Source of the DNA: a virus
Length of the DNA stretch: 64,000 bases
Reading direction: 5' to 3' (one strand)
Virus record (IMG/VR): IMGVR_UViG_3300028827_000129
Coordinates: 1 to 64,000 of that record
Shown: one piece after another, positions 5,082 through 58,081 of the stretch
Layout: every line of letters begins with the position of its first letter
Numbering within the stretch: the first letter of the stretch is position 1
Made by a program: the position numbers and the translations under genes
The notes under the pieces: model-generated
Seen by the model: the letters and a program-made list of their open reading frames with translations, nothing else
Told to the model about the DNA's origin: nothing
Databases searched by the model: none

Positions 5082-5092
5082 ACTTACCTCCA

Positions 5093-19496: not shown

Positions 19497-20435
19497 TTAC
19501 CAGACTTGCGTTAACGATACTAATGTAAAGGGCCTTTTAGATAATTCATCTATATCTTCTTGATATTTTTTAGGTAATAATTTTTGAATATATTTTTTAT
19601 ATATATTTCTTGCCTCTTTTCTGTTATGTTCATTGATAATATCTTGAATAGTATTTTCTCCAATGTCGCTAATGAACTTTTGAGATTTCTTTTCATATGC
19701 TTTAATTACAGAAAACTTTGTAAGATAAAAAACAATTTTAGCTATTTTTTTATCGCTTAACCAATAATTATTTAATGCTCTATATTCAAAACCATACTCT
19801 TTTGGACGATGTGATCCTGCTTTGCCATAGAGTTGTTTTCTCTTTTTACTTGTAGGATCTTTATCTAAAAGAACATTGGTAACTCCAACAAACAGATCCA
19901 TGCTTTGTACTGCTTTAATTATATTTTCAATATTTTGCCCAATATCCTCTGAAGCAAAAAACGATTTTGCGATATCATCATTATAACCAACATGTATATG
20001 ACCTGCTGCAGTTCGTAACGTATTTTCTCCTGCAAGTGGATCAATGATATTCATTTCTCTTGTATATGCATTAAAATCAGGTTCACAGCCAAATATTTTT
20101 GCTTCTTCGTTATCTAATTCTTTTTTAGGAAAATTTGCAGCTGCTAATACAACTGCATCAAAATCTGTTTCTTCAATATATTTGGTTAACTTTTTCATCC
20201 TATTGATAAAATCTTTAAATGTACTAGCAGGAGTAAATCCTGCTTCTAGGTTAACATTATCAGCATGTATTGTCAAGCCTTTTTTGACCTCTTTTGGATC
20301 ATGTTTACTTCCTGGGATTTTCCCAATAGCAGAAATAAGTTTTGATGACAAATCTTTCACAGAATTAGTTTTAATTCCTTTTTCTATAAGCATAAATTCT
20401 GGATCTGCACCTATTACCAATGAAGAAAATTTCAT
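19497..20435 (-). CDS. Phage COOH-NH2 ligase (amidoligase) 1
   Basis: It is a glutamine-synthetase-fold amidoligase of the phage phiEco32 type, 312 aa. Motifs are LVIGADPEFMLIE at the N-terminus, LTIHADNVNLEAGFTP, AAGHIHVGY, and YGKAGSHRPKEYGFEYRALN. The family is predicted to use ATP to join a carboxylate to an amine. It is the last gene of the amidoligase island and follows the Lys-rich 300-aa protein. GGAG precedes the ATG. The substrate is unknown. It differs clearly from amidoligase 2 (25296-26129), so the two probably have different substrates. Confidence 0.85.
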   Translation of the reverse strand: MKFSSLVIGADPEFMLIEKGIKTNSVKDLSSKLISAIGKIPGSKHDPKEVKKGLTIHADNVNLEAGFTPASTFKDFINRMKKLTKYIEETDFDAVVLAAANFPKKELDNEEAKIFGCEPDFNAYTREMNIIDPLAGENTLRTAAGHIHVGYNDDIAKSFFASEDIGQNIENIIKAVQSMDLFVGVTNVLLDKDPTSKKRKQLYGKAGSHRPKEYGFEYRALNNYWLSDKKIAKIVFYLTKFSVIKAYEKKSQKFISDIGENTIQDIINEHNRKEARNIYKKYIQKLLPKKYQEDIDELSKRPFTLVSLTQVW

Positions 20436-20452
20436 AATTACTCCTTTTTTAT

Positions 20453-21355
20453 CTACTTAGTTGTCTTCTTTTTAACTGGCTTGAGCTTTAACTTTGGTTT
20501 TGCTTTTAACTTAAGCTTTTTTAATGTAACCTTTTTTGTTTTTGTAGGTTTAATAATCCGCTTTTTTAATGTTTCAGGGGTTACAATCCAATGCGGAAAG
20601 TTTTTAGAAATAGTTTCATTTTTACTGTCTATAGCTCTACCTAAACCAACAATACCTAAAGAGGCATGCATTGACATTGTGCTTATATTATCAGGATAAT
20701 TAGTAGCTAAAACATCGCCGAAAAATTGTTTTGGATGATAATTAAGAAAATTCTTAATAGCAGAATATGCATTATATAGATAAGATGCATCATTTGATCC
20801 ATAGAAAATGCTACTTTTGTTAAGTTTGATATCTTTTAGGAAATCGTTTAATGTCTTATTTTTATCATAAATTAAACAAGCTCTCAACAAAAGAGTATAC
20901 AAAGAAATCAAAGGAGGGCTTAAGGCCCAGTTTGACGGGCCTGTAAATACAACAGCAGGATGTTTACGACTAGGTGTCTCGAAAATTACTTCTTTTGCTT
21001 TTGTAAATTCCCATCCGAAACGTTTTTCAAATTGGTTAACAATATTTAGTGTGTTAGATGCCAAAGAAGAAATATCTTTTTTGGGATCAAATACTAATAT
21101 TCTTATTTTGTCAATATCCCAACTATCGTCTTTAGATGGATTAAATTTAAATCCATATATACTAATATGCTTATTATTAACCATACCATGGATTAAATCT
21201 TGAATAAAATCTTTGCAATACATGCTAACTGTTACAGCTTTATATTTTTGTTTTCCATTTTTACTATATGGATTCACAAGTACAAATTTGAGACCTGAAC
21301 TATAAATTTCAGCCAAAATATTATCAGCTTCTTCTTCTCTACATTTTACAATCAT
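20453..21355 (-). CDS. Hypothetical protein with Lys-rich tail, 300 aa, amidoligase island
   Basis: No family was recognised. The segment TGPSNWALSPPLISLYTLLL echoes the amidoligase 2 motif TPGSWLLSPQVSYLY, so it may be a divergent member of the same fold without clear catalytic residues. The last 40 residues are almost only Lys, Pro, Leu and Thr (LKLKAKPKLKLKPVKKKTTK), like a histone H1 tail. Such a tail could bind nucleic acid or be a modification substrate. It sits between C26 hydrolase 1 and amidoligase 1, overlapping the former by 4 bases. Confidence 0.55.
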   Translation of the reverse strand: MIVKCREEEADNILAEIYSSGLKFVLVNPYSKNGKQKYKAVTVSMYCKDFIQDLIHGMVNNKHISIYGFKFNPSKDDSWDIDKIRILVFDPKKDISSLASNTLNIVNQFEKRFGWEFTKAKEVIFETPSRKHPAVVFTGPSNWALSPPLISLYTLLLRACLIYDKNKTLNDFLKDIKLNKSSIFYGSNDASYLYNAYSAIKNFLNYHPKQFFGDVLATNYPDNISTMSMHASLGIVGLGRAIDSKNETISKNFPHWIVTPETLKKRIIKPTKTKKVTLKKLKLKAKPKLKLKPVKKKTTK

Positions 21356-22035
21356 ACCTTACTCCTTTCTAAAGTATTTTTAACTTTATTAAGGTTTAGT
21401 TTTAAATATTTTTCTAGACTATCTAAGAAGTAATTCCATCCTAAAGAATTTGGTTTCATCATTTCTGGATGATATTGTGTACCAAAAGCATTAATTTTTG
21501 GGAAATATGCTGCTTCATATTCTTTATCGACTTTTGGTACAGGATTTTTAAAGTCATCAAAAATATAAATATCTGATCTAGGCTTTTCAGCCCATGCTGT
21601 AATTACTGCTGAAGATGAAGGTTTTATCATTTGATGATGTGTACAATATGCATCAATAGTTTTACCTTCTATTGTTGTTAAATTATGTAGAATTCCTTCA
21701 TGATTATCAATATGTTGGTACATTTGCCCACCATTAATAACATTTAAAAATTGGAAACCTCTACAAATACCTGCAAGCTTAATGTTGTTTTTTATTGCTA
21801 ATTCAGCTACTTTAATATCGATATTATCTCTTTTGTCGCTATAATATGATGCAGCATTTTTACATCCATAAATAACAGGATTAATATCATGTCCACCAGT
21901 AAAAAGAATTAAATCTTTATCTTCAATTTGTTTTTCCATTGATTCTGTTGGGGAAAAATTTCTTACTTCTACATTGTAATCTCTGAATAAACAATTATAT
22001 GTTATAGAAGAAACAATAAGAATTTTCTTTTTCAT
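21352..22035 (-). CDS. Class-I glutamine amidotransferase-like / C26 gamma-glutamyl hydrolase 1
   Basis: The triad is visible: nucleophile Cys in AGICRGFQFLN, and His and Glu in QYHPEMM. An oxyanion strand FTGGHDINP lies at the start. At 227 aa it is a stand-alone domain like PuuD or folate gamma-glutamyl hydrolase, which cleave gamma-glutamyl amide bonds. In the island it could release a ligated group or supply ammonia. It overlaps the downstream gene by ATGA and is the first gene after the terminator/dyad region at 22067-22168. Confidence 0.88.
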   Translation of the reverse strand: MKKKILIVSSITYNCLFRDYNVEVRNFSPTESMEKQIEDKDLILFTGGHDINPVIYGCKNAASYYSDKRDNIDIKVAELAIKNNIKLAGICRGFQFLNVINGGQMYQHIDNHEGILHNLTTIEGKTIDAYCTHHQMIKPSSSAVITAWAEKPRSDIYIFDDFKNPVPKVDKEYEAAYFPKINAFGTQYHPEMMKPNSLGWNYFLDSLEKYLKLNLNKVKNTLERSKV

Positions 22036-22066
22036 ATTACTCCTTTCTTCTTTTATATTCTCATTA

Positions 22067-22109
22067 AAAAAACCACATATAAGATTTATTTACTTATATG
22101 TGGTTTTTT
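22067..22109. terminator. Bidirectional rho-independent terminator
   Basis: A perfect 17-bp stem (AAAAAACCACATATAAG and complement) with a 9-base loop starts with A-run and ends with T-run on both strands. Minus-strand transcripts arriving from the ATP-grasp gene would stop here. It lies just upstream of C26 hydrolase 1 and splits the island into two transcription units. Confidence 0.85.
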
Positions 22110-22114
22110 ATGAA

Positions 22115-22168
22115 GTCAATGCCGTAATGTTCATAAAATGTTAATTTTATGAACATGTAGGCATTGAC
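22115..22168. promoter_or_regulatory. 54-base perfect dyad element
   Basis: There are two nested arms: outer 9 bp (GTCAATGCC / GGCATTGAC) and inner 13 bp (ATGTTCATAAAAT / complement), separated by GTA on both sides, with a 4-base GTTA centre. No U-run follows. The symmetry suits an operator for a dimeric or tetrameric protein, a recombinase site, or a protected RNA hairpin. It lies between the ATP-grasp gene and C26 hydrolase 1, 6 bases from the terminator. The rest of the gap (22169-22252) holds a smaller imperfect hairpin (TGCCA..TGGCA) and no gene. Confidence 0.7.
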
Positions 22169-22252
22169 TTGTATCTAACCTTCTTTTCTGTGGATATTAT
22201 TGTATGCCATGAAGCGATTCACTTCTGGCAATTGTCCATATAAAATAAAGTA

Positions 22253-23023
22253 TTAACTATTTGCTTTTACATATTCAGTAAGATGACGTACAAAGCGATC
22301 TGCTGTTGTCTCTTTATCAGGATTATCTATAAAATGACTCATACTTGGTGCAGTATTTACTTCTAATACGTAACATTGATCAGGGTCATCAACAGGAACT
22401 AAAATATCTACTGCACCAAATAGAAAACCAAGTTCTTCAATTACATCTTTTGCTAGTTGTCTTATTTTCTTCTTTTTAACAGTGCCGTCATTTTCGACGG
22501 CAAAAAATCTATATCCATTAGCATAATTCTTTATTGGGTTAATTGGGTTAGTTTCTTCTGTAGGCTTTTTTTCTGTAAATTTAATTGACTTTCCATTAAA
22601 AACAAAAACTCGAAATTCTCGATTGTCTTCAATAAACTTTGTAGAGTAGGCATAACCTTCATCGTATAGCTTTTCTAATTTTTGTTTAGTAAAGCAGATT
22701 TTAAAATTATTGCCTCCCTGATGAGCTCCTTTTCTAACAACTCTTGGGAAATCGTCAGGTTGCCAATCTCTTTCTTCGCCTTTTATATGTACATCAATCA
22801 TTTTATCTCTTATCTTCTTGATATCGTCAAGTTTTTCTCTTTTAATTCCCCAAGGGACTTCAAAGTAGTTTTCAACTTCAATAATCTTTTTTACAGTATC
22901 ATTTTTTAGTTCTTCTTCCTTTAGTGCAATTGCTTTAAATCCTTCAATATTATTGATTTTTTCTGCTAAAAGATTTGCAGTTACATTAGTTTTCTTAGTA
23001 CGCTTTAACAAAACCTTATACAT
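22253..23023 (-). CDS. ATP-grasp ligase (RimK-like)
   Basis: It is 256 aa long. The C-terminal ATP-grasp lobe has LGFLFGAVDILVPVDDP, YVLEVNTAPSM (metal-binding Glu and Asn) and an earlier FIEDNREFRVFVFNGK strand. ATP-grasp enzymes form amide or peptide bonds through an acylphosphate. It overlaps the upstream class-II amidotransferase by 8 bases, so the two are probably produced together. A role in adding an amino acid or amine to a peptide or small molecule is inferred from family and neighbours. Confidence 0.88.
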   Translation of the reverse strand: MYKVLLKRTKKTNVTANLLAEKINNIEGFKAIALKEEELKNDTVKKIIEVENYFEVPWGIKREKLDDIKKIRDKMIDVHIKGEERDWQPDDFPRVVRKGAHQGGNNFKICFTKQKLEKLYDEGYAYSTKFIEDNREFRVFVFNGKSIKFTEKKPTEETNPINPIKNYANGYRFFAVENDGTVKKKKIRQLAKDVIEELGFLFGAVDILVPVDDPDQCYVLEVNTAPSMSHFIDNPDKETTADRFVRHLTEYVKANS

Positions 23024-24086
23024 TTAATTCTTCTCCTTTCAAACTATCTGGAATTTCTAGTTTAACTAAGCAATGACCACAAATAGCTTCTGATAACATT
23101 GCATATGTTAATGTTTCGTGGCATTGTGTACATTCAAAGTCACTTTCTTTAACATAACATGTTTGACATATATGGATATCTTCTATATCTACACATTGTG
23201 CATGACTTTTACAATGGTCACATTGGCTATGACGCCAAATTTTATTTGATGAAGAATGTGATGTACTATACGTCTTTTTACTATAGCTAGTTCCTCCGTA
23301 AGAATAAGTCTTATTACTACTGTAATAATTACTGTTGCTGTTATAATATGTTGTGTATGGGAAATGAGCTTCTTTTTCTAATCCATCTTTGCCTAAGATA
23401 ATTACTTTATCATTTGATACTTCTATAAAATGAAAATCATCATTATTAACAAACTTAAAACCTCTAAATTTTATTGAACAGATATGTTCTAAAAATGGCT
23501 TTTCTGAAGCAAAAAATACAATATCATTTTTCATATCCAGTAATAAATATAATGTTTTATTTCGCCTAAATAAATATAATTTATCAGGTTCTTTAACATT
23601 TAAGGCAGCAAAGGTTGCATCTCCTTTCATACTGCTAGCGTTATCTATAAATTTGTCAAATCCTAATTTATCTAATAGCATAGGTAAAATTATTGTATCA
23701 CTTTGAATATTATTTGGTACTTTTACATTATATTGTTTTTCTAATTCTTTAACATTATTGATTTTTCCGTTATGCACAACAGCCCAATTATTAAAAATCA
23801 TAGGATGGTTATTATCATTATTTTCAGCTTTTGCTCCAGTACTTGGATTTCTTGTATGTAAAATTGCTACAGAAGGCAAATTCTTTGTAAAATTTTCCCA
23901 GATTTCTGTTTTCATAAGTTCATCAGAACTTTTAGGTTCTTTGAAAAATAACATTTTATCTTCATGAATAAATGCAGTTCCTGAAGCTTCTTTTCCTCTT
24001 TGTCCAGATAAAGAAAACATTATTTCAAGATCTACAACTTTCGGCCTTTTATCACCAAAACATTTATAACCTAATATTCCACACAT
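23016..24086 (-). CDS. Class-II glutamine amidotransferase with C-terminal zinc ribbons, copy 1
   Basis: The Ntn-hydrolase domain (residues 1-230) starts MCGILGY, so Cys2 would be the N-terminal nucleophile. It also has SLSGQRGKEASG, ILHTRNPSTG, VVHNGKINN and QSDTIILPML. A Ser/Tyr/Asn-rich linker (residues 258-295) leads to zinc-ribbon modules (CDHCKSHAQC, ICQTCY, CTQCH, CGHCL). No synthetase domain is fused, unlike GlmS, PurF or AsnB. It would release ammonia from glutamine for a partner enzyme. A diverged second copy lies at 26143-27168. Confidence 0.88.
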   Translation of the reverse strand: MCGILGYKCFGDKRPKVVDLEIMFSLSGQRGKEASGTAFIHEDKMLFFKEPKSSDELMKTEIWENFTKNLPSVAILHTRNPSTGAKAENNDNNHPMIFNNWAVVHNGKINNVKELEKQYNVKVPNNIQSDTIILPMLLDKLGFDKFIDNASSMKGDATFAALNVKEPDKLYLFRRNKTLYLLLDMKNDIVFFASEKPFLEHICSIKFRGFKFVNNDDFHFIEVSNDKVIILGKDGLEKEAHFPYTTYYNSNSNYYSSNKTYSYGGTSYSKKTYSTSHSSSNKIWRHSQCDHCKSHAQCVDIEDIHICQTCYVKESDFECTQCHETLTYAMLSEAICGHCLVKLEIPDSLKGEELNV

Positions 24087-24102
24087 TTATCTCTTCCTTT
24101 CT

Positions 24103-25293
24103 TTATTTATATTCGTTATCTTTTTCAAAAGCTGTTTCATAAAGCTTATAAAGATCTGTATCGTATTGAGACGATACGGGTTTATAAGTAGCTGTAGTTG
24201 TTGTTGTCACTTTATTATTAAGAATATATGTGTATCCATGCTCATTAGATGCTTTTGTCTTTCCTCGTAAAAGTTTTTTAATTGGTTCTGATATATTTAT
24301 TGGATGCTTTGTATTATTAGGTTGTAACTTAGACTTTTGTTTTTCAGATGCCGATATATCTTCAGATGATAAATTAAGTAGATAATCAAATAAATATTTT
24401 AATCTGCTAAGCGATATTTGATCTTTAGTCATGTGTATTGCTTCTCGTATTGCATATGTGATACCTACACCAATATCAAATTTACGTAATGGTTGGTCAT
24501 ATAAATAAACATTAGGAAATAGCTTTAAGATAGAATCGACATCTTTCATCTGTTTTATTATCTTTTCTGAAGTTCTAATTACTATATGAGCATCTGAAGG
24601 GTATGTAGATGATTGTGTAGTAATACCAAATACCTTAATCCTATAAGTACTGCTAAAATCTACAAATGATGAAGATATAAGATTCATAACTTCATCTAAA
24701 AAATCATCATCAATATTCCATTCAACAGCATATTTATTTATTTTTTTATCTTTGGTTTGCGGAGTTATTGTTAATTTTGCTGGTTTTATTTTAACGAATT
24801 CTGGTGGTTTATCGGTATTAAATTTTGAAACAAAATTTAATATATCATCTTCAGATACATTAACTTCATTATTTTCTACAGATAAGGTTGCTTTACAATT
24901 AATACACACTATTGAATCTTTATAACCAGATTTTAATTGATCTAAGAAGAATAATCCATTACAAGTATCGCATCGTCGATAATATTGGCCAAAACATTTA
25001 TAACATATAATTTTGCCAAGATAATTATAGTATTGACCTTCCTTCCATGTTCTCCCACAATATGTGCATGCCTTGTATGTTAAACATTCTTTACAATGGA
25101 TATCATTGCTAGCATTAATAGCTTGTATATCATCTACTGTGTGCAGTGTTAAACATTTTTTACAATAAAACATGTCTGTATATCTTTTACAGTGTTTACA
25201 ACGGATTAACTTACCAGTTTCTTCTTCAATAGCTTTTATATTAAGTTCTATTTTGCCGTTACAAAAACAACAAATTGCAATTGTCTTTTCCAT
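24103..25293 (-). CDS. Multi-zinc-ribbon protein of the amidoligase island, 396 aa
   Basis: Residues 1-140 carry several CxxC pairs (CCFCNG, CKHCKR, CKKCL, CTYCGR, CYKCF, CDTCNG, CINCK), so four or so zinc ribbons. The rest is a mixed alpha/beta region with no recognised family, then a Thr-rich stretch. It sits between amidoligase 2 and amidotransferase copy 1, and its zinc ribbons resemble those fused to both amidotransferases. It may be the adaptor that holds the enzymes together. Confidence 0.6.
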   Translation of the reverse strand: MEKTIAICCFCNGKIELNIKAIEEETGKLIRCKHCKRYTDMFYCKKCLTLHTVDDIQAINASNDIHCKECLTYKACTYCGRTWKEGQYYNYLGKIICYKCFGQYYRRCDTCNGLFFLDQLKSGYKDSIVCINCKATLSVENNEVNVSEDDILNFVSKFNTDKPPEFVKIKPAKLTITPQTKDKKINKYAVEWNIDDDFLDEVMNLISSSFVDFSSTYRIKVFGITTQSSTYPSDAHIVIRTSEKIIKQMKDVDSILKLFPNVYLYDQPLRKFDIGVGITYAIREAIHMTKDQISLSRLKYLFDYLLNLSSEDISASEKQKSKLQPNNTKHPINISEPIKKLLRGKTKASNEHGYTYILNNKVTTTTTATYKPVSSQYDTDLYKLYETAFEKDNEYK

Positions 25294-25295
25294 AT

Positions 25296-26129
25296 TTAAA
25301 TCCAGTACTCCTTGATATCATCATTCCATTTTAAAGGCAATGAATTAATAGTTTTTTCTAAAACTGTAAGAAATACTTTTTTATCTTGAAAAAAATTCTT
25401 TTCGCTTAATTGGATAATCAATCCTAACTTTTCTTCATTTGTTGTTGCATTTCTTAGAGTTGTACATATTTTATTTAAATTTTGTGGTGTAATAGTAACA
25501 TTTGCCTCAAATGGAGTATCAATAGTTTTAATTTCTCCTATTTCTGTTCCGATAACAATATTATATGCTAAAGCTATATACAGATAAGACACTTGTGGAC
25601 TTAAAAGCCAGCTTCCTGGGGTTCTATATTCAAAATGATTAGTACCTTTAGTTCTATAATCTCCTAAATTTCCATAAACATTACCTCCTCCATTATGATG
25701 AGGAGCACCATTATTTCTTCTTTTTCTTTTTTCTTCTTTAGGATCTATTAATTCACTTAATAATTCAATGTAAATATCTAAATTTTGAACTATTGTACGA
25801 ATTTTGCTGGAAGTAACACCAGCAAAATGAATATGACCCCCAAGAGGTTTGTTCTTCTTATAATGCCCAGCTAGCCAATTTAATTGTGTCAATGTGCCAT
25901 TTTTAAAATCTAATCCTTTTGTATATGCTTGTTCAAAAACATTCTTAATTCTGGCAATCATTTCAAATGGAGTAGAAGCTACTCCAGGCCTAAGTTCACA
26001 AATAGGTGGATGACCATCACACCCAAAAGCTACAGTTTTATTTTTAGTTAAAATTGTATGAGCTGGTATTAGTACATTATTTTTATCTGTAAAAACAATT
26101 TCTGGGTCGCAACCTACAAGCAGATCCAT
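25296..26129 (-). CDS. Phage COOH-NH2 ligase (amidoligase) 2
   Basis: It is 277 aa long with the amidoligase signature: LLVGCDPEIVFTD, FGCDGHPPICELRPGVASTP, LGGHIHFAG, YGNLGDYRTKGTNHFEYRTP and GSWLLSP. These correspond to the metal, ATP and substrate motifs of the glutamine-synthetase fold. It is placed between a class-II amidotransferase gene and the multi-zinc-ribbon gene. The core motifs are more complete than in amidoligase 1. The substrate is unknown. Confidence 0.88.
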   Translation of the reverse strand: MDLLVGCDPEIVFTDKNNVLIPAHTILTKNKTVAFGCDGHPPICELRPGVASTPFEMIARIKNVFEQAYTKGLDFKNGTLTQLNWLAGHYKKNKPLGGHIHFAGVTSSKIRTIVQNLDIYIELLSELIDPKEEKRKRRNNGAPHHNGGGNVYGNLGDYRTKGTNHFEYRTPGSWLLSPQVSYLYIALAYNIVIGTEIGEIKTIDTPFEANVTITPQNLNKICTTLRNATTNEEKLGLIIQLSEKNFFQDKKVFLTVLEKTINSLPLKWNDDIKEYWI

Positions 26130-26142
26130 CTTACCTCCACAT

Positions 26143-27168
26143 TTAATGAACTAAGTCTTTATTACAATTTTCACATTTTTTATTTTTATTTAAAGGATTA
26201 TAACAAATTTTACAGTAATCTATTTGGTGGAAAGCATCAAAGCATTCTTTGCAAACAATTTGATTTTGTAGAAAATATTTTTTTCCATAAAAAACATCTA
26301 GACAAGAGTCGCAAATATTACCTTTTCCATTTTTAATTCTTTTTTCATACCAACTTTCATAATTCTCATGATTATGCAAATAAGAACTATTACTGTATTT
26401 ACCCTTCTTGACATCAACATCATAAAAAGAAATTGTGTCTCTATATAGATAATCGAACGTCATTTGCTGTTGTAATCCATTTTCATTAATGATTAAACAA
26501 GTGTTTTCACTAACCTCTTGAATATCTTTTGATGGTATAACAAAATTTCTCCATAAAGATTTTCCATTTAGATGGTATAAATATTTCTTAAGCGAAGCAA
26601 AATAAAATATATCATTGATTCTATCATAAAGATAGAATAATGGCCTTTCTTTACGATGTATAATTAACGAATAAGGATTTTCTTTATGATACATTGCAAA
26701 TGTTACAGCACCATTTAGTTGCTTTAAATACGACATTCCTTTTTCAACACCATAATGATCAAATAACCAAGCTATAGAAGCACTATCAACTTTTAGTTGC
26801 AAATTCATCCCATGCCATTCTCTAACAGCTTCATTGTTCATGAGAGTACCATTATGAACTAAAATAGTTTTCTCTAGTTTGATCGGATGATTATTTGTAT
26901 TATCTGATGAACTTCCTACACTACTTTTTCTGGCATGAAGAATCATTGTTTTTGGCAACTCTTCAAGTTTTTTCCAACGTTTTGTTTTTACAAAATCTGA
27001 TGCTTTTAATGGAGCTTTATAAACTATAAAATCTTTTTTATGTTCTGAATAATAACCAAATCCAGAGGCATCTTCTCCTCGTTCTTGTAAATATATAAAT
27101 AACTTCGTCAATAGCTGTTTGTCTGGACGCTTTTCTCCAAAACAATAATAACCTGCAATTCCGCACAT
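26143..27168 (-). CDS. Class-II glutamine amidotransferase with C-terminal zinc ribbons, copy 2
   Basis: It is 341 aa and paralogous to 23016-24086. It starts MCGIAGYYCFGEKRP, with QERGEDASGFGYY, ILHARKSSVGSS, LVHNGTLMN and KVDSASIAWLF. The C-terminus has zinc-binding pairs (CDSCLD, CKECF, CKICY, CENCN). Retaining Cys2 and the HNG motif implies both copies are active glutaminases. It overlaps the upstream gene by one base. Confidence 0.88.
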   Translation of the reverse strand: MCGIAGYYCFGEKRPDKQLLTKLFIYLQERGEDASGFGYYSEHKKDFIVYKAPLKASDFVKTKRWKKLEELPKTMILHARKSSVGSSSDNTNNHPIKLEKTILVHNGTLMNNEAVREWHGMNLQLKVDSASIAWLFDHYGVEKGMSYLKQLNGAVTFAMYHKENPYSLIIHRKERPLFYLYDRINDIFYFASLKKYLYHLNGKSLWRNFVIPSKDIQEVSENTCLIINENGLQQQMTFDYLYRDTISFYDVDVKKGKYSNSSYLHNHENYESWYEKRIKNGKGNICDSCLDVFYGKKYFLQNQIVCKECFDAFHQIDYCKICYNPLNKNKKCENCNKDLVH

Positions 27169-27647
27169 TATTCACATACCGCCTTTACTAATTTTTCTAT
27201 TTTATCAAAATGTTTTTTACGTGTATCTAAATCAAACGCAATAGCATGATTACGTTTTACAACAATAATATTTATAGAATCGCCAAAAACGGAATATATT
27301 TTTTTCTTTATGTGTGTATTGTAGCCAATTGCTATAGTTCTATCTAATCTATTTTTTAATCCATAAACATGGATTCTCCCTTTAAAATTGTATTTTTTAA
27401 ATAGGTCTGCAATTTCTTTTGCTTTTTGGTGCTTTGCATTATATGTAACTCTAGTATTTATATCAACCATTGCCGACTTTAATTTTTTGTCAGGTTTTAT
27501 TGGCTTAGCTATATTAGTCAAACGTTTATATGCTTTTTCATAAGAGCTATCTGTAAGCATATCTTTTATATTATCAAAAATAATAGTTTTTCTTTTATTA
27601 AAGTTTGTTTCAAATTCATCTGGGTTTATAGAAAATTTTGTATTCAT
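27168..27647 (-). CDS. Hypothetical protein downstream of reverse transcriptase, 159 aa
   Basis: No family was recognised. It is basic (many Lys), with an alpha/beta C-terminal half (RIHVYGLKNRLDRTIAIGYN, INIIVVKRNHAIAFDLD). Its ATG lies 2 bases from the reverse transcriptase stop, and the ribosome site is inside the RT gene, so the two are coupled. If the RT is a defence or retron-like system, this is the first candidate for its partner protein. Confidence 0.5.
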   Translation of the reverse strand: MNTKFSINPDEFETNFNKRKTIIFDNIKDMLTDSSYEKAYKRLTNIAKPIKPDKKLKSAMVDINTRVTYNAKHQKAKEIADLFKKYNFKGRIHVYGLKNRLDRTIAIGYNTHIKKKIYSVFGDSINIIVVKRNHAIAFDLDTRKKHFDKIEKLVKAVCE

Positions 27648-27648
27648 T

Positions 27649-29184
27649 TTAACCCTCTTTATATTTTTCTAACATTTTTTCAACTAATTTACTTTGTTCA
27701 TTATTGATAAGTTTAACAAAAGACATAAAACCATCTACATTGTATGTATCAGGATTGGATTTAATAAATCCTCTCCAAGCATGCATTGTTTTTCTTGGTA
27801 TCCTTAATGTTCCATCTTCATGAACACTGATACCATTAACATTTACATATGGGTAAGTCATAATTTTAAATTTATGTTTATTAATTGGTATATCTAGATA
27901 ATTAACAAAGAAACTTGTTAATTGTTTTTTGAGTTGTAATTTTTCTTCTTTATTAAGTTTCTTAGATAATGATATTGTAATATCATCAACATATCTTGTA
28001 TATGCAACCATTTTTGCTTTTGTTGCTCTGTATATAAGTTTGCGTAAAAAATTTATATACTTTTGTTCTATTCTAGACATGACAATATTAAAAATATATG
28101 TTGACGTAGGACTGCCAATGGGTAAAATAAACCCATTATTATTTGGTAATATTGTGTAATCAATAATTTTAGACGATATTAAACTAGTAAATCTTGAATG
28201 GATTAAACGTTTATAAATACGATTTCTATTCCCCATTAAAATATTATGAAAAGCATTTTTTATATCAACTTTTACCCAAGTTATTGGAGCATTCTTTTTA
28301 CTGAAATGATATTTGATAGCATCAACCATATTTCTGTTTTTAACTCCTCCATAGCTATATTTGCCAGGAGAAATATTTTTATAAAGTATTTTTAAGATAT
28401 CACGTTGTAAATTTTTAATATTTTCATTTGGCTTATGAATAAATCTAATACCTCCATTGCTTTTTTTGATAAAATATGTTTTATAAAGTTTATTTATTGC
28501 AACTCCATCAACATTGTTATCTTTAAATGACTGTGATAAGATAATAGTATTATCCAAATCTTTTTTAAAATTATGTTTACCACTCTTAACATATGTATAT
28601 ACTGAAATAAATTGATCTAGTAATGCTTTTATGACATCCCAAGATTGATCTATCTTTTTATTTTTCTTAAGATATTTTAATTTCTGTTTATGAACATTAA
28701 AATCTATTTCTTTCCCATTAATATAAATAGTTATGGCTAAAAGAGACATGAATTGATATCCTAATGTATTAAAAAAATTCATATTTATTACTTCATTATC
28801 ATTTTTTTGTATAAATTGTATTATATTTTCGTAAGACTCTCCATTAGTTTTTTCAATAACATCTTTTAATTGCAAATCTTTATACTTATCAGGAATAGTT
28901 CCATTTTTTATATGTGTGGCAATTTCATAAAACAGATTTGCTTGTTTTATATCAGAATCATTAAACCAATCCATAAATGCTTTTTTATATATATTTAAAA
29001 CTTGTATTTCCATTTTAGACAAAGAAATTTCTGGTTGTTTTTTTTCTGTATCTGGCCATTTTAAGATATAGTAAAACAATGTAATTGGACTGCAAGTATA
29101 GAACCTTTTGTCATTATAAAGTTTTACTGCCATGTTTCTTAAATTTAAATAATTTATCATACTACTATATTTTTTCTTTTGCAT
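27649..29184 (-). CDS. Reverse transcriptase, retron/Abi-like
   Basis: It is 511 aa long. The RT domain occupies the second half: IRFIHKPNENIKNLQRDI (RT1), YGGVKNRNMVDAIKYH (RT2), WVKVDIKNAFHNI (motif A with catalytic Asp), LPIGSPTSTYIFN (motif B), YTRYVDDITIS (motif C, YVDD), INKHKFKIM (D) and YVNVNGISVHEDGTLRIPRK (retron-like motif E/7 region). The first 220 residues match no family I recognise. The start at 29184 is chosen because GGAGG lies 5 bases upstream; an ATG at 29211 forms the hairpin arm. No endonuclease or maturase domain is present. It is embedded in the amidoligase island, with a hairpin-rich leader at 29185-29318. Confidence 0.88.
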   Translation of the reverse strand: MQKKKYSSMINYLNLRNMAVKLYNDKRFYTCSPITLFYYILKWPDTEKKQPEISLSKMEIQVLNIYKKAFMDWFNDSDIKQANLFYEIATHIKNGTIPDKYKDLQLKDVIEKTNGESYENIIQFIQKNDNEVINMNFFNTLGYQFMSLLAITIYINGKEIDFNVHKQKLKYLKKNKKIDQSWDVIKALLDQFISVYTYVKSGKHNFKKDLDNTIILSQSFKDNNVDGVAINKLYKTYFIKKSNGGIRFIHKPNENIKNLQRDILKILYKNISPGKYSYGGVKNRNMVDAIKYHFSKKNAPITWVKVDIKNAFHNILMGNRNRIYKRLIHSRFTSLISSKIIDYTILPNNNGFILPIGSPTSTYIFNIVMSRIEQKYINFLRKLIYRATKAKMVAYTRYVDDITISLSKKLNKEEKLQLKKQLTSFFVNYLDIPINKHKFKIMTYPYVNVNGISVHEDGTLRIPRKTMHAWRGFIKSNPDTYNVDGFMSFVKLINNEQSKLVEKMLEKYKEG

Positions 29185-29318
29185 TAATTCCTCCATTTTC
29201 GAACCTTTCATATTTTGAATTTATGAAAGGTTCAAAATTTAAAGCGTACTCTTTATTTGAGTACTAAATAAAGAAGAAAGCACTTAAGCGAAAACACTTA
29301 GGCTTATAAAAACTTTTT
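29185..29318 (-). ncRNA. Hairpin-rich leader of the reverse transcriptase (candidate msr/msd-like RNA)
   Basis: This 134-base gene-free interval lies between the FmdB-like stop and the RT start. It has an 11-bp stem (arms 29201-29211 and 29223-29233), an 8-bp stem (29251-29258 with 29266-29273), and a repeated CACTTA 14 bases apart at 29281 and 29295. The first stem ends 16 bases before the RT start codon. Retron template RNAs lie at this position, but no a1/a2 pair or conserved guanosine could be assigned, and 134 bases is short. A translational control structure is the alternative. Confidence 0.4.
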
Positions 29319-29513
29319 TTATTTACTATAGCCGTTTGAACTCCATCCTACTCCACCTGGTTTTAAAATAAATGAAGTATTGACAATTATTTTTGTTGCT
29401 ATATTATTGCATTTTGGACATTTTGCCCAATTTCTTTCATCATAAATAGAACGTTGTAGTTCAAATTGATGTTTACATTTTGGATTATCACATGCAAAAA
29501 CATAAATTGGCAT
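29319..29513 (-). CDS. FmdB-family zinc ribbon protein
   Basis: It is 64 aa with the typical MPIYVFACDNPKCKHQFE start, then CPKCNNIATKII and FILKPGGVGWSSNGY. The two CxxC-type pairs bind zinc. FmdB-like proteins are small putative regulators. The ATG at 29513 follows GGAGG; the earlier ATG overlaps that ribosome site. Confidence 0.8.
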   Translation of the reverse strand: MPIYVFACDNPKCKHQFELQRSIYDERNWAKCPKCNNIATKIIVNTSFILKPGGVGWSSNGYSK

Positions 29514-29514
29514 T

Positions 29515-29826
29515 TTAAATTCCTCCATTATGTTTTTCTTTTCGCTTTATAGGATATGTGTTTAAAATATCATTTAAAACTTGTAATAAAGTTTTCTTGT
29601 CCTTTTTTAACTCTTCTGGCCATACATAAAATGCAGTATTTCCTTTGTCTTTTATGCCTTTTACTTTAAATCGGATTCTTTTTGTTGAATATAAAGGAAT
29701 AATTTCTTCTATAACAACTTCTCTCTTTTTTGCAAATGCTACTTTTGGATCATAATAAAATGTTTTATATAATAATTTATTTTCTGCAAAAGCTACTTGT
29801 TCATAAAATAATTTATTATTTTCCAT
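29515..29826 (-). CDS. Hypothetical protein, 103 aa
   Basis: No family was recognised. It is a mixed beta protein with basic ends (FYEQVAFAENKLLYKTFYYD, IRFKVKGIKDKGN). The start at 29826 lies just after the C26 hydrolase 2 stop; a longer frame from 29934 would overlap that gene by 83 bases and is less likely. The ribosome site is weak. Confidence 0.5.
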   Translation of the reverse strand: MENNKLFYEQVAFAENKLLYKTFYYDPKVAFAKKREVVIEEIIPLYSTKRIRFKVKGIKDKGNTAFYVWPEELKKDKKTLLQVLNDILNTYPIKRKEKHNGGI

Positions 29827-29851
29827 CTTAATTTTCTTTTTTTCTCTTATT

Positions 29852-30637
29852 TTATTTAATCTCTTTAATGAACGCCTGAATGATCTTGAGACAATCATCA
29901 TTAAACATTTCCTCTGGGTGCCATTGCACTCCAATAGCTAAAACGCCATCTTTTGTTGACTCAATTGCTTCAATCACATTATCAGATGGGCTTCTAGCTA
30001 TAATATTAATATCAAAATTACTTGGAGATTCTTTCCATACAATCTTATTATTTTTATTTCTGATTGGAACTGTGCAATCAATAGCCTGATGATGCATAGA
30101 ATTTACCCATGTTATATCTTTTTGTAATGCTTTGTAAAGAAAACTGTTTTGGGCAATTTTGATTTTATGCGTAGCTACTGAGCGAATTTGTGTCTGCATA
30201 TGTCTTGCAGGACTATCTACAAATTCTCTAATATCTTGCCATAATTGACATCCATGAGCCACCCCAATGATTTGATGTCCACGACAAATGCCTAAAATTG
30301 GCTTCTTTCTTTCAATACATCTTTTAGCTAGATAAATTTCAAATTCATCTCTTTTAGGTAATCCTTGTGTGCAATTTCTATCTTCTTCTCCATAGTAAAT
30401 TGGGACAATATCATGTCCACCAGAAAGCAAGATTGCATCCATAGAGTCAATAATTTGATCAACATATTTATCTTTTTCTTCTTTTGCCCAAGTTGTAACA
30501 TCAAAAAATTCAGATGGGATTAAAACTGATGCTGCACCAGCAGCTTGTACGTATTTAGCGTATGCTTTGTTTACAGAAATTTTAGGGATATCCTTAACGT
30601 CTCTCATTACAGGAGTTGTAATACCAATAGTAACCAT
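29852..30637 (-). CDS. Class-I glutamine amidotransferase-like / C26 gamma-glutamyl hydrolase 2
   Basis: At 261 aa it resembles PuuD (gamma-glutamyl-GABA hydrolase): VTIGITTPV start, ILLSGGHDIVPIYYGEE, nucleophile Cys in LGICRGHQIIGVAHG, HHQAI and GVQWHPEEM with catalytic His and Glu. It is more canonical than copy 1 at 21352-22035. Likely reaction: hydrolysis of a gamma-glutamyl amide, perhaps reversing an island product. Confidence 0.9.
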   Translation of the reverse strand: MVTIGITTPVMRDVKDIPKISVNKAYAKYVQAAGAASVLIPSEFFDVTTWAKEEKDKYVDQIIDSMDAILLSGGHDIVPIYYGEEDRNCTQGLPKRDEFEIYLAKRCIERKKPILGICRGHQIIGVAHGCQLWQDIREFVDSPARHMQTQIRSVATHKIKIAQNSFLYKALQKDITWVNSMHHQAIDCTVPIRNKNNKIVWKESPSNFDINIIARSPSDNVIEAIESTKDGVLAIGVQWHPEEMFNDDCLKIIQAFIKEIK

Positions 30638-30649
30638 CTAAATCTCCTT

Positions 30650-31273
30650 TCATTCTTCAGATAATTCTTCTATATCATAAAACACTATTTCTTGATCTAT
30701 AGTCAATGTAGCAAGTGTTGCATGACAGCTGGTACATTCTATAAGAAATGTACCTTCAGGTACTCTGATAATATCAATCGTTTCTGTTTCTTCTATATTC
30801 TCTCCACAATTTGGACACTTTTTATATGTATATCTTGCTTTAAAACGTTTTATATTATTTCTTACAATACGAGCAAAAAATTCCTCAACATCAACAAACA
30901 TTTTAGTATTTAACAGACAAAATCTGTTTAAACTATTTTTGGATTTAAATAAGTTTTTGTTAACAGCCCAATTTTTTCTCTTTATTTTTCCATAAAATGA
31001 TATAATTATTTCTCCAATAACAGAATCGCATTCCATGCATGACAATGCTAAACTAGCATTTAAAAAATGACCTTTGTTATTTTGGGCAGGTATTGTTTCT
31101 TCAATTTCAATTAGAATAGCATTGAAATCTTCAAAGTCTTTTTTACAATGCTCACAAAATCTTGGGATAATAATACTATTATCTCCTAGTAATTCTATAA
31201 GAAAATCATACCATATATCATCCAATTCATCAAGTACAACTGATTCAATACTAAGGCAAGTCTCTATGCTCAT
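30650..31273 (-). CDS. Zinc-ribbon hypothetical protein, 207 aa
   Basis: No family was recognised. CxxC pairs occur at CEHCKKDF, CMECDS, CPNCGEN and CTSCHA, arranged as two split zinc ribbons around a basic helical middle. The start overlaps the upstream stop (ATGA). It is another cysteine-rich member of the amidoligase island. Confidence 0.55.
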   Translation of the reverse strand: MSIETCLSIESVVLDELDDIWYDFLIELLGDNSIIIPRFCEHCKKDFEDFNAILIEIEETIPAQNNKGHFLNASLALSCMECDSVIGEIIISFYGKIKRKNWAVNKNLFKSKNSLNRFCLLNTKMFVDVEEFFARIVRNNIKRFKARYTYKKCPNCGENIEETETIDIIRVPEGTFLIECTSCHATLATLTIDQEIVFYDIEELSEE

Positions 31274-31851
31274 TTAGTTTTCCTCTTTATATGTTTTTTA
31301 ACATCTAAAAGATTAAATTCGTCAAGGATACTTCTACATATGGTAAAAGGCTTTATACATCTTCTTTTTGTAACAAAGTTTCTTATTTTACCATATAAAA
31401 AATAAGTATCTCTTGAACTCATAACAATAGGTTGTTTAATAATTTCTTTATTAACGCCAGAGTTTTTTATCAATTCCAGAGCATACCAATAAGTGAATTG
31501 AGCAGCTTTATAATTTAAATCATCTTTATCATATTCCATTCTTTTAGCTAAACGTTTTCCTTTCTTTTTTGTATATACTTTATTTTCATATATATAACAA
31601 TTTATATTTGAATACTGAAAATTAAAAATAACTCCTTGTTTAACATAATAAAGCCTTAATAAATCTCTATTTTTTTCTTCACGTAAAAAACATAGCCCCC
31701 ATTGCTCTTTGTTTGGGTTTACTATTAATTTAAATTTTCTAGTCATATCATCATATTGTGTTAAATAAACATTCTTTGAATCTTTAAAATCTATATCAAG
31801 AGGTTGTATTTCAAGAACTGGTTTATTATATTGGATAAGAGCCTGAGACAT
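31270..31851 (-). CDS. Hypothetical protein, 193 aa
   Basis: No family was recognised. The N-terminal half is beta-rich (VYLTQYDDMTRKFKLIVNP, GVIFNFQYSNINCYIY); the C-terminal half is basic and helical. AAGGAG lies within the end of the upstream gamma-glutamylcyclotransferase gene, which it overlaps by 26 bases. Confidence 0.5.
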   Translation of the reverse strand: MSQALIQYNKPVLEIQPLDIDFKDSKNVYLTQYDDMTRKFKLIVNPNKEQWGLCFLREEKNRDLLRLYYVKQGVIFNFQYSNINCYIYENKVYTKKKGKRLAKRMEYDKDDLNYKAAQFTYWYALELIKNSGVNKEIIKQPIVMSSRDTYFLYGKIRNFVTKRRCIKPFTICRSILDEFNLLDVKKHIKRKTK

Positions 31852-32251
31852 GTTCAATAAAATACTCCTTTTCTTTAATATTTTTTACATGTGCATAACG
31901 ACGAATACATATACTGGTAGCCAAGTATGTAAAGGCTTTTATTTCTGTGCCATCATCTTTTATTACAGTTATTTTTTCTCTTGTATAGCCTGATTCAAAT
32001 TTATCAAAAAATGGTAACATAGAAACATTTACATCCCATAATTCTCCTTTAATTTTAACAGGCTGATAATAATGATAAGCATTATACATAGATTGCTTTA
32101 ATAAAAAAGGAATATGGTTTTGTTTTGCAGAAATTAAAACCATAGTATTTTTTGTAATGGCAGGACAAATATATTTTGCTTTTAACATATTTTTTAAAAA
32201 ACTATTATTAAAACAACCATTTTTACACGAACCATAAATAAAAAATATCAT
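31826..32251 (-). CDS. Gamma-glutamylcyclotransferase-like (AIG2/GGCT fold)
   Basis: It is 141 aa. The GGCT signature is seen: MIFFIYGSCKNGC (YGS loop), VKIKGELWDV, and FFDKFESGYTREKITV with the catalytic Glu position, then AFTYLAT. GGCT-fold enzymes cleave gamma-glutamyl amines to 5-oxoproline and free amine. The fold recurs beside amidoligases in described neighbourhoods, which strengthens the assignment. GGAG precedes the ATG. Confidence 0.8.
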   Translation of the reverse strand: MIFFIYGSCKNGCFNNSFLKNMLKAKYICPAITKNTMVLISAKQNHIPFLLKQSMYNAYHYYQPVKIKGELWDVNVSMLPFFDKFESGYTREKITVIKDDGTEIKAFTYLATSICIRRYAHVKNIKEKEYFIEHVSGSYPI

Positions 32252-32260
32252 CTTTACTCC

Positions 32261-32614
32261 TTAAAGTTTTTCTATTACAATTTTTCCATCATTGGTTGAA
32301 TAAGCAATTTTTTTTATTCCTGCTTTTTTTATATGTTTAAAACATTTTTTACATGGCCTTGAAAGTTTAAGTTTATTTTCCTTATCAACTCGTATAACTA
32401 TCAAAATAATTTTATTACTAATTTTTTCTTTTTTTATCTTACGCAAGCATGCTACTTCTGCATGCATTGTAGGCCAAAAGGGTTTACTATTATTTCGCTT
32501 ATTGGTACTAATATAGGTGGGAGTATTGTTGATAATAAGAGCTGCAATATGTTTGGATTTTTTTACATCACTTAATTTTGCTTTCTTTTTTAAAACATTA
32601 ATAATTCCATCCAT
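32261..32614 (-). CDS. Cytidine/deoxycytidylate deaminase-like protein
   Basis: It is 117 aa with the zinc deaminase motifs MHAEVACLRK (His and catalytic Glu) and SRPCKKCFKHIKKAG (two Cys). The small size and tight motif spacing fit dCMP or tRNA/nucleotide deaminases. It could make dUMP from dCMP alongside dUTPase, or act on an island metabolite. Its ATG overlaps the upstream stop (TAATG). Confidence 0.82.
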   Translation of the reverse strand: MDGIINVLKKKAKLSDVKKSKHIAALIINNTPTYISTNKRNNSKPFWPTMHAEVACLRKIKKEKISNKIILIVIRVDKENKLKLSRPCKKCFKHIKKAGIKKIAYSTNDGKIVIEKL

Positions 32615-34530: not shown

Positions 34531-34938
34531 TTAAGCTACTAATGTCTTTAAATTAATGTTTTCTTTATGTCTTACAATAATATAAGAGTTACACAATAAA
34601 CATAGAATATGAGCAAGATCCATAGCATAATCTAAATTTGCAGTAATAATTCTAGCTTGTATAACATCTTTTTCTCTGTCTCTCCCAGGTAAATAAAAAT
34701 ATGATGGTCTTCCTGGTTTTGCATTAATCTGAGGAAATGATGAAGAAGCAATAGAAAAATTAGTTTTATCTATACGTATAGTATAAAGTTGTCCTAAGCC
34801 ACGTAGACTCTCATCTATATAATTATATTGAATTTTCAGCTCATATCTAAGAGATGGGGTTAAAATACGGCTTATTTTCATTGTATATTTTACAAAAGAA
34901 AAGTCCATATCATATGATTTACCTAATTTTATTTCCAT
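34531..34938 (-). CDS. Hypothetical protein, tandem paralogue A, 135 aa
   Basis: No known family. It aligns with the neighbour at 34948-35325: shared order ESLRGxG, TIRIDKTNFSIASSSFPQIN, YFYLPGRDREKDVI, then a helical stretch and KENINLKTL. It is a beta-rich half followed by a helix. The pair is a local duplication. Confidence 0.55.
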   Translation of the reverse strand: MEIKLGKSYDMDFSFVKYTMKISRILTPSLRYELKIQYNYIDESLRGLGQLYTIRIDKTNFSIASSSFPQINAKPGRPSYFYLPGRDREKDVIQARIITANLDYAMDLAHILCLLCNSYIIVRHKENINLKTLVA

Positions 34939-34947: not shown

Positions 34948-35325
34948 TTATGATAATATTTTTTTAAAATTAATTTTTTTATTACTGAAAAAGATTGATG
35001 CGCAAGTAAATAATTTTATGATGTCAGCATAAGCTTGTTTAAAATCCTCTTCATTGTCAAATTGAGTTTTTACAAGTATATTATCCATTTCTGAAGCTGT
35101 TCCTCTGACAAATACATATGGTGGATTTAATTGTGGACATGTAAGACTAGTTAAAGAAGTAAAAATTTTATTAGAATCAAGAGAAAATGATAATTTTCCT
35201 CTTAAGTGTTGATCCATATATAAAACTTGCATGCCTAAATCATGACAAGAACCACCGACGTATTTTTCTAATATGAATCTTATTTTTATATAGCCAAAGT
35301 CATGGGCTTCCATATGTCTTTTCAT
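34948..35325 (-). CDS. Hypothetical protein, tandem paralogue B, 125 aa
   Basis: It is the paralogue of 34531-34938 (QHLRGKLSFSLDSNKIF, CPQLNPPYVFVRGTASEMD, KKINFKKIL). Start uncertain: ATG at 35325 or 35313, neither with a strong ribosome site. Function unknown. Confidence 0.5.
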   Translation of the reverse strand: MKRHMEAHDFGYIKIRFILEKYVGGSCHDLGMQVLYMDQHLRGKLSFSLDSNKIFTSLTSLTCPQLNPPYVFVRGTASEMDNILVKTQFDNEEDFKQAYADIIKLFTCASIFFSNKKINFKKILS

Positions 35326-36643: not shown

Positions 36644-37978
36644 TTAAATTTCACAGTTATCCTCTAATTCGGCCATTGCTGTTTTACGGATTTCTTCAAA
36701 AGTATATTCAACGAAAAACTTTCCATTTTTCCATACGAGCGGTAAATTGAGATAATCAAATCTGCCAGCTTTACTTTTCTTCCATTGGCAGTCTTTAGGT
36801 TGTTTATATACACTTCTCCAACCTTCTCCAGGAATATGAATAGCAGATATCTTCATGGCATAACCATATGTGTCACGATTAACTTGTTGTAAAGAACCTC
36901 CACCCATTCCAAAGGCAATATTATCAGCTGACCATTTATTTTTTTCCATCACTGAAAGAATTTCTTCTATGTTATCTGGACTAGAAATACCATCACCTTG
37001 AATAAGTCTTATACAGTCTGGTAAAACCTTATATCCTTTTTTATTAATAGAACTACCAAAAGCTTCTTCAAGTTCATTTAACGAACGAAGAACAACTTCT
37101 GAAGGTTCACCAGAATCTGGCCTTACAACAAGTGTTCCGCCAGATTTGAATATCTGTGATTTGAGCTGTTTTCCCCAAATATTTCTAATAGCATTTGAAA
37201 GATCATAACTATCAGAAACACATGCCGCTATCTTACCTTCGCCAAGAAAATTATCAATAAAATTTTTGTATGCGTTGGCTTCATTGGCTCTGCCCCATGA
37301 AGTAATAGTTGAATGTTCGGCTGCATTAATGGAGAATCCCAGCATTGAATCAGTATTATAATATTTTTGTGCAGCGAAAATGCCTGCTATTGTATCTGTT
37401 CCCATAGAAGTAGTAAGCTCAGCCATACCACCAATAGCAGCTGATTCTTCAGAGCTGGTACCTCTATATCCAAATGAATGTAGTTTAAATGGTGCTAAAG
37501 AAGGATCGCCAGTATAATTCAGATATTTAAGAATAATCTTCTTACATTCAAATTGTCTTGTAGCAACAGTACATGGGTACCATATTTGAAGAAGGCGTGT
37601 TTCTATCCAGCCAGGAAGCCAACCAAAATCTGGATGCGTAGATTCGATAGTTACCTGTACTTCGCCAATATCGACCAAATGCCCTTCTTTAACTGCTCTA
37701 ATTTCTAAAGGATAATAACCTAAATCGGCTAATTGCATCCAGCCTTTTTTGTTAAAAGCTACTCCATGTGCTTCCCAAAACTTAGCTGCCTCTTCAACGT
37801 CAGACTTTGATGGTACATTACTTAAAATTTTTTTAATGATGGCTTGTAGACCGAAGAATAATATCTCATCTCCTCCGCGCCTAGCTTCAATGTAATAGTA
37901 AGTGCCTGTGTTTTGTGGGAATTGTAGAAAATGACTTGCTTTATAAGAGTCAGTAGATGTAATTAAAGTGTTATTCAT
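36644..37978 (-). CDS. nadV: Nicotinamide phosphoribosyltransferase (NAMPT/NadV)
   Basis: It is 444 aa with family motifs TDSYKASHFLQFP, WEAHGVAFN, FKLHSFGYRGTSSEESAA, SINAAEHSTITSWGR, VVRPDSGEPSEVVLR, LIQGDGISS and MGGGSLQQVNRDTYGYAMK. It joins nicotinamide and PRPP into NMN. The next gene downstream in transcription order is separate, but the NMN adenylyltransferase lies immediately upstream, giving a two-step NAD+ salvage route. Start: the second of two adjacent ATGs, with better spacing from GGAGG. Confidence 0.95.
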   Translation of the reverse strand: MNNTLITSTDSYKASHFLQFPQNTGTYYYIEARRGGDEILFFGLQAIIKKILSNVPSKSDVEEAAKFWEAHGVAFNKKGWMQLADLGYYPLEIRAVKEGHLVDIGEVQVTIESTHPDFGWLPGWIETRLLQIWYPCTVATRQFECKKIILKYLNYTGDPSLAPFKLHSFGYRGTSSEESAAIGGMAELTTSMGTDTIAGIFAAQKYYNTDSMLGFSINAAEHSTITSWGRANEANAYKNFIDNFLGEGKIAACVSDSYDLSNAIRNIWGKQLKSQIFKSGGTLVVRPDSGEPSEVVLRSLNELEEAFGSSINKKGYKVLPDCIRLIQGDGISSPDNIEEILSVMEKNKWSADNIAFGMGGGSLQQVNRDTYGYAMKISAIHIPGEGWRSVYKQPKDCQWKKSKAGRFDYLNLPLVWKNGKFFVEYTFEEIRKTAMAELEDNCEI

Positions 37979-38019
37979 CATTTACCTCCTTTGCATCTAT
38001 GCATCTGAGTTTTTATTAG

Positions 38020-57710: not shown

Positions 57711-57823
57711 GCGGTACCTCCGTGTAGTAGCTAAGTTAGTGGAACCGCTAGGGCTTAATTTCCTTATATCCAATAAGTCACTTAACAATTCGCTGCATAT
57801 CAACTTTCATTTCACTACAGTTT

Positions 57824-58066: not shown

Positions 58067-58081
58067 AGTTTTAATTGGTAG

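Follow-up and report, generated by a model that had tools for sequence, protein, structure and literature searches.

Gene content of the amidoligase block

This report concerns a block of genes at positions 19497-32614 of a 64,000-nucleotide stretch of viral DNA (referred to as the window), which consists of bases 1-64000 of the 170,083-bp IMG/VR virus record IMGVR_UViG_3300028827_000129. Judged from the protein families that it encodes, this block of an uncultivated phage belongs with the amidoligase cassettes of phages phiEco32, PaP3, LUZ24 and RIO-1, among which it is an enlarged and rearranged form. Such cassettes are predicted to make and trim amide bonds of the glutamate type on bacterial peptides. 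The inventory of the block includes three ATP-dependent carboxylate-amine ligases, two class-II glutaminases and three enzymes of gamma-glutamyl-cleaving families, i.e., two C26 hydrolases (C26A and C26B) and a gamma-glutamylcyclotransferase (GGCT), arranged in two tight units. The core of the "peptidoglycan modification" cassette, which is a PF14395 ligase, an ATP-grasp ligase, a class-II glutamine amidotransferase (GATase) and a GGCT on one strand, is thereby present; all of the block genes are on the minus strand.

The families were assigned by Pfam and PHROG profile searches, and each family that had been named in an earlier note on this DNA scored above its curated cut-off. The two COOH-NH2 ligases, the ATP-grasp ligase, the two class-II glutaminases, the two C26 hydrolases, the GGCT and a deaminase listed there are all borne out with intact catalytic motifs. 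The profile check that the note had proposed (COOH-NH2_lig, ATP-grasp, GATase_6/7, Peptidase_C26 and GGCT) matched these families, and the expected residues are present in the alignments.

The two PF14395 ligases are ligA (25296-26129; PF14395, 1e-28), a member of an Ignavibacteria-like subfamily, and ligB (19497-20435; PF14395, 1.3e-12; PHROG 3815, 1e-59), a member of the classical phage subfamily. The G-x-D-P-E, E, GHxH, R and EYR motifs of PF14395 are invariant in both. By its structure model (predicted template-modeling (TM) score, pTM, 0.84), ligA has a fold of the glutamine synthetase/GCS type, and within that superfamily the best overall fits are the carboxylate-amine ligase YbdK (TM 0.64) and the Pup deamidase Dop (TM 0.58). 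The third ligase is the ATP-grasp protein (22253-23023; PF02655 (ATP-grasp_3), 9e-7; PHROG 2599, 2e-17). The two stand-alone class-II glutaminases, GAT2a (26143-27168; PF13522, 1e-14), which has a C-terminal zinc ribbon, and GAT2b (23016-24086; PF13522, 2e-13), both have the Cys after the N-terminal Met, the Arg, the HNG and the Asp of the glutaminase site; no synthase domain was recognized in either by the Pfam and PHROG searches.

The hydrolyzing enzymes are C26A (29852-30637; PF07722, 1e-49; PDB matches Lin1909, 3e-25, and PuuD, 1.5e-12), with Cys, HHQ and HPE intact, and C26B (21352-22035; PF07722, 2e-22; PHROG 7218, 8e-35). The nucleophile Cys in GxCRG and the His-x-Glu pair are present in both, and the GGCT (31826-32251; PF06094, 1e-10), which is of the GGACT type, has the YGS/YGT motif and the conserved catalytic Glu. 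The sites of both PF14395 ligases, both GATases, the ATP-grasp ligase, both C26 enzymes and the GGCT are therefore intact by alignment. The earlier note saw a ligating side and a gamma-glutamyl-hydrolyzing side; both sides are there and apparently active, but the idea of two sets is mostly not supported.

The co-oriented genes overlap or are separated by gaps of mostly less than 30 nucleotides (nt); for example, the end of the GAT2b gene overlaps the ATP-grasp gene by 8 nt. The exceptions are a leader of about 130 nt before a reverse transcriptase (RT) gene and a 217-nt gap before the C26B gene, which folds at z = -10. The structures in this gap (22067-22170 by fold analysis) are a 27-bp hairpin, 89% complementary, at 22113-22170 and then an intrinsic terminator with a perfect 17-bp stem and a T-run at 22067-22109. 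Because the gap holds both of them, the division of the block into two units by a terminator, as the note had it, is right.

Among the proteins that the note left unnamed are unk396 (24103-25293), unk159 (27168-27647) and unk300 (20453-21355). The first two are related to a zinc-ribbon protein described below, and unk396 has zinc ribbons itself. Searching PHROGs for a family shared by unk300 and hypothetical proteins beside other cassettes gave none; a hidden Markov model match to a homologue beside the cassette of contig L033 (E = 1e-9) supports such a link, and unk300 would be considered cassette-associated. The remaining genes are those for a 195-amino acid (aa) protein with no family match in the profile searches (31270-31857), a 207-aa protein with weak zinc-ribbon matches only (30650-31273), an FmdB-like zinc ribbon (29319-29528; PF09723, 9e-10) and the deaminase, a small cytidine/deoxycytidine monophosphate type with HAE and PCxxC present as read in the translation (32261-32614; PF00383, 5e-10). 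The deaminase lies at the edge of the block and is probably not part of the cassette; its single-sequence profile had no match in the other cassette loci.

Comparison with other cassettes

The cassette occurs in hundreds of sequenced phages, and ligB alone matches 316 phage records. A PF14395 ligase, an ATP-grasp ligase, a class-II GATase, a GGCT, often a C26 hydrolase and usually an Amidoligase_2 are found in PaP3, Kuravirus EcoN5, the crAss-like phage cr108_1 and Alcaligenes, Vibrio and Leptolyngbya phages. When gene order was checked against related phages, the block was seen to be an amidoligase/GATase/GGCT neighborhood of the phiEco32 kind, as proposed earlier. The phiEco32, PaP3, LUZ24 and RIO-1 cassettes share with it ligB, the ATP-grasp ligase, the class-II GATase, the GGCT and, in some of them, a C26 enzyme, and they lie among the early genes. 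However, the classical cassette has one PF14395 ligase, an Amidoligase_2 and one class-II GATase, whereas the block has two PF14395 ligases, no Amidoligase_2, two class-II GATases, two C26 enzymes, zinc-ribbon companions and a retron-like RT. Amidoligase_2 is not universal in cassettes of this kind, and so its lack marks a variant. The cassette has been published as a peptidoglycan modification module; its action on the cell wall is a prediction, and a surface change against superinfection was proposed (PMC5498523).

The IMG/VR contigs used for comparison (loci L022-L053) came from scans with an alignment of the ligases and then with an alignment of the ligA subfamily; single-sequence scans of IMG/VR with ligA, GAT2a and the RT gave nothing, so that alignment-based scans were needed. 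Each contig is counted once in what follows, and the contigs are related to each other, were recovered by ligase queries and are in many cases fragments. Ligases of the ligA type are present in 23 other virus contigs. Sixteen of them also have ligB, and 13 have two ligA-type genes in the stretch examined. Amidoligase_2 is absent from all 23, both by our own profile and by Pfam over the whole records, and PF12224, its Pfam family, has no match in the whole record of the present virus. Six of the seven contigs with ligB only have an Amidoligase_2 by our own profile (four by Pfam), and the seventh, L029, ends inside the cassette. Because Amidoligase_2 does not occur in the ligA contigs and is present in most of the ligB-only contigs, these results would most simply imply that ligA fills the slot of the absent Amidoligase_2 and that the constant feature is a set of at least three ligases, not two sets. 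The possibility that unk396 is a degenerate Amidoligase_2 was ruled out by the missing PF12224 match.

The earlier note also held that every enzyme class is doubled, and this did not survive the comparison. In the ligase tree, several forks of which are weak, ligB groups with the classical phage ligases and ligA lies outside of them, nearest by path to Ignavibacteria ligases. The ATP-grasp ligase and the GGCT are single-copy, and together with the ligase tree this rules out a duplication of the whole cassette. C26A clusters with one member, and C26B with the other, of the C26 pairs in L029 and in Leptolyngbya phage Lbo-JY46 (L016); the support is about 86 and the branches are long, and the two enzymes may be old subtypes. 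The exception is the GAT2 pair. GAT2a and GAT2b are sisters (Shimodaira-Hasegawa-like approximate likelihood ratio test 96) and are placed beside the Ignavibacteria GAT2 in the tree; since all 30 comparison records have at most one GATase_6 match, the pair is the sole lineage-specific duplication of the block. A search of the whole 170,083-bp record found no extra PF14395, C26 or GATase_6 copy outside the block, and so the clustering of these enzymes is not due to chance.

The comparison separates the parts of the system into a minimal three-gene Ignavibacteria unit, a multi-ligase form in about 20 uncultivated phages and the present hybrid. The multi-ligase phages (L023, L028, L037, L043, L046, L051 and others) resemble the block in having ligA- and ligB-type ligases, a class-II GATase with a C-terminal zinc ribbon, an ATP-grasp ligase, often a GGCT and no Amidoligase_2. 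Unlike the block, they have one class-II GATase, often a second ligA and no RT, and the contigs with the full set lack C26. This form is apparently undescribed, although part of it may be in Iyer 2009 or Hardies 2013. Phage Lbo-JY46 and contig L029 are similar to the block in another way, as they have at least two C26-family genes together with one ligB, a GGCT, an ATP-grasp ligase and a class-II GATase; they differ in having one class-II GATase and no ligA, and Lbo-JY46 has an Amidoligase_2-like protein. Other common neighbors of the multi-ligase cassettes (L022-L052) are a GNAT acetyltransferase, a sigma-70-like factor and several unknown families.

Where both are present, the GAT2 and ligA genes are nearly always close neighbors. 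Of the 22 other virus contigs with both genes, 21 have a GAT2 and a ligA on one strand and no more than 1 kb apart, often with the ATP-grasp gene directly next to them. Many of these contigs have a single GAT2 between ligA and the ATP-grasp gene, whereas here two GAT2s flank ligA and unk396. This near-constant pairing could provide a direct biochemical handle on the product of the cassette. One contig from a scan with the GAT2 clade (L134) has a GAT2 and no detected ligase.

LigA and both GAT2s have their closest relatives in the Ignavibacteria triad (L054-L062), which consists of ligA, then a zinc-ribbon protein, the only gene in between, and then GAT2. Eight loci of genome contigs have it in full, and at two others it is truncated by the end of the contig. 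The loci are labelled Ignavibacteria or relatives, except for one Gracilibacteria contig, the proteins of which are nearly identical to those of an Ignavibacteria one. The triad differs from the block in that it has three genes only, with no ligB, C26 or GGCT found, and identities are 30-38%. Its zinc-ribbon protein is related to unk396 (hhalign score 36.5; best of 100 shuffles 27.3) and to the C-terminal domain of unk159 (24.1; best of 100 shuffles 16.3), both of which are modest scores; the predicted model of unk396 (predicted local distance difference test 46) was too poor to use. At L061, Mu Gam-like and DUF932 genes, which are typical of phages and plasmids, come after the triad. A 176-kb Ignavibacteria-labelled contig (PAAX01000035.1; L057 and L059) has two near-identical ligA/zinc-ribbon units, one at each end and in opposite orientation, and it is possibly not chromosomal but a phage or other element.

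LysW-type carrier proteins serve RimK-like ligases in the recognition or carriage of their substrates. By analogy, there is a slim chance that ligA, GAT2 and the zinc-ribbon protein make up a distinct and self-contained system for glutamine-dependent amidation in phages and mobile elements, with the zinc-ribbon companion (unk396, unk159 or the Ignavibacteria protein) recognizing or carrying the substrate. Here, it would have merged with a classical cassette and gained a second ammonia donor for the ATP-grasp enzyme, giving a multi-step pathway that has not been described before.

Genes for ligA-like PF14395 proteins are also chromosomal in many spore-forming Bacillota (L064-L133). YheC/D ATP-grasp genes lie beside about half of these loci, and many of them have mutS/mutL-like genes downstream.

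Possible chemistry of the cassette and other explanations

Enzymes of the glutamine synthetase and ATP-grasp types use ATP to activate a carboxylate, which they then join to an amine, and class-II asparagine-synthetase-like enzymes amidate meso-diaminopimelate in cell walls. We infer the chemistry of the block from its families and the partners from its gene order, and we give about an even chance to the following pathway. Each ligase would activate a carboxylate as an acyl phosphate. GAT2a would supply glutamine-derived ammonia to ligA for a glutamine-dependent amidation, and GAT2b would do the same for the ATP-grasp enzyme in a second one; presumably their ammonia goes to a partner enzyme because they have an intact glutaminase site and no recognized synthase domain. 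LigB would form a further amino-acid or gamma-glutamyl amide bond, and C26A, C26B and the GGCT would remove gamma-glutamyl groups from host peptides or from the product. The likeliest substrate, which is a guess, would be a peptidoglycan precursor or other glutamate-containing peptide that is altered early in infection; a cytosolic peptide or protein is also possible.

The equivalent gene set in many phages, which the literature describes as a module for peptidoglycan modification, the intact motifs, the fold of ligA and the GAT2-ligA adjacency are all consistent with this pathway. The GNAT acetyltransferases beside ligA-type cassettes fit a peptide or amine substrate, and we also count in its favor that the PF14395 ligases of spore formers often adjoin YheC/D ATP-grasp genes. 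Several points weigh against it. A literature search gave no paper measuring the activity or the substrate of the cassette, the partner assignments depend on gene order, the cell-wall target is itself a published guess, and small metabolites are also substrates of the C26 and GGCT families.

Other explanations start from the same enzymes. The ligases might tag a host or phage protein with an amino acid such as glutamate or glutamine, as RimK or the Pup ligase would, with C26 and GGCT reversing the reaction, for host takeover or counter-defense. The ATP-grasp protein does match the RimK/ribosomal S6 ligase PHROG, the fold of ligA fits that of Dop in the Pup pathway as well, and genes suggesting counter-defense (NAD salvage and RNA ligases) are nearby; however, no dedicated tag protein was found, and in many unrelated phages the cassettes have replication genes around them and no recurrent protein target could be seen, so protein tagging seems unlikely to us. 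Nitrogen metabolism was suggested for Planctomycetes phage ZRK32, which has an equivalent gene set (PMC10945688), and the enzymes would then recycle glutamine, glutamate and gamma-glutamyl compounds for phage synthesis. The glutaminases and C26 enzymes could indeed free ammonia and glutamate, but three ATP-consuming ligases are poorly suited to recycling and the ties of the glutaminases to ligA point to coupled amidation, which makes this explanation quite unlikely. It is improbable that two complete cassettes, each with its own substrate, make up the block; the earlier note had spoken of two sets. Two ligases, two C26 enzymes, two class-II GATases and the terminator between the units speak for it; on the other hand, the ATP-grasp ligase and the GGCT are single, the unit after the terminator has neither a class-II GATase nor an ATP-grasp ligase, both of the ligase subfamilies, which are old, are present in 16 other virus contigs, and the C26 subtypes may pair elsewhere.

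The RT (27649-29184; RVT_1, 2e-18), which has a YVDD motif, could also be a working part of the cassette, for example as a retron that senses or regulates it. It was correctly noticed earlier as embedded in the block, where it is co-oriented with the other genes and preceded by a structured leader (29185-29318; z = -4.3). In every library, it matches retron RTs best (retron St85, 2e-28, which is below the cut-off; PADLOC RT_II-A, 4e-28; and PDB matches that are all retrons), and retron types II-A/St85, Ec83, Ec78 and Ec86 are the top ones in PADLOC, NCBIfam and PDB. It differs from these retrons in scoring under the family cut-off, in its long N-terminal extension of about 220 aa and in its lack of a proven msr-msd RNA or effector. 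A start at 29184 (GGAGG, then ATG) is likelier than one at 29211. The leader is possibly a retron non-coding RNA; it matched no Rfam family at the gathering score and had no relatives for covariation analysis. Because RVT_1 is present in none of 24 other cassette-bearing virus records that were checked, the RT is probably a passenger and not part of the pathway, and a role in the cassette is very improbable. The neighbor that might serve as effector, unk159, is a relative of the zinc-ribbon protein that accompanies ligA, and it was therefore rejected both as a retron effector and as an Avd-like protein. A diversity-generating retroelement was also ruled out, as there is no template/variable repeat pair near the RT.

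Other features of the virus record

The replication and metabolism genes of the record are mainly on the minus strand, and those for the terminase, portal and capsid are on the plus strand, further along the record. The nearest terminases in phage records, those of Acinetobacter phage ME3, Moorella phage MTATph1 and Bacillus phage KLEB27-3, are 31-37% identical, and a nucleotide-level search of phage records found no relatives of the virus. A second IMG/VR contig (L012, 87 kb) has an identical terminase, and no PF14395 match was found in it.

Several other genes in the window deserve mention. A nicotinamide phosphoribosyltransferase (PHROG 448, 1e-140) adjoins a nucleotidyltransferase-Nudix protein at 36644-38925, which is an apparent phage salvage pair for nicotinamide adenine dinucleotide (NAD); such pairs have been linked to countering NAD-depleting defenses. 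A tRNA repair set includes an RtcB-like tRNA-splicing ligase and a T4-type RNA ligase (39377-40534 and 46418-47569), with at least eight tRNA genes nearby. A radical SAM protein (45226-46095; PF04055, 4e-9) has no PHROG match, and a papain-family cysteine protease (4275-5093; PF00112, 3e-17) adjoins the DNA polymerase gene. Adjacent small proteins at 34531-34938, which has no PHROG match, and 34948-35325 look similar by eye in translation.

Two regions differ in guanine-plus-cytosine (GC) content. Three adjacent open reading frames (ORFs) at 56060-58792 (281, 303 and 236 aa), the N-termini of which are similar by eye and the first of which has no Pfam match, lie in a stretch with 47% GC against about 29%. 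At record positions 70000-78000 (L006:6000-14000), GC reaches up to 62% against 31% for the genome, with long ORFs on both strands, and this stretch is either a recent acquisition or an assembly join.

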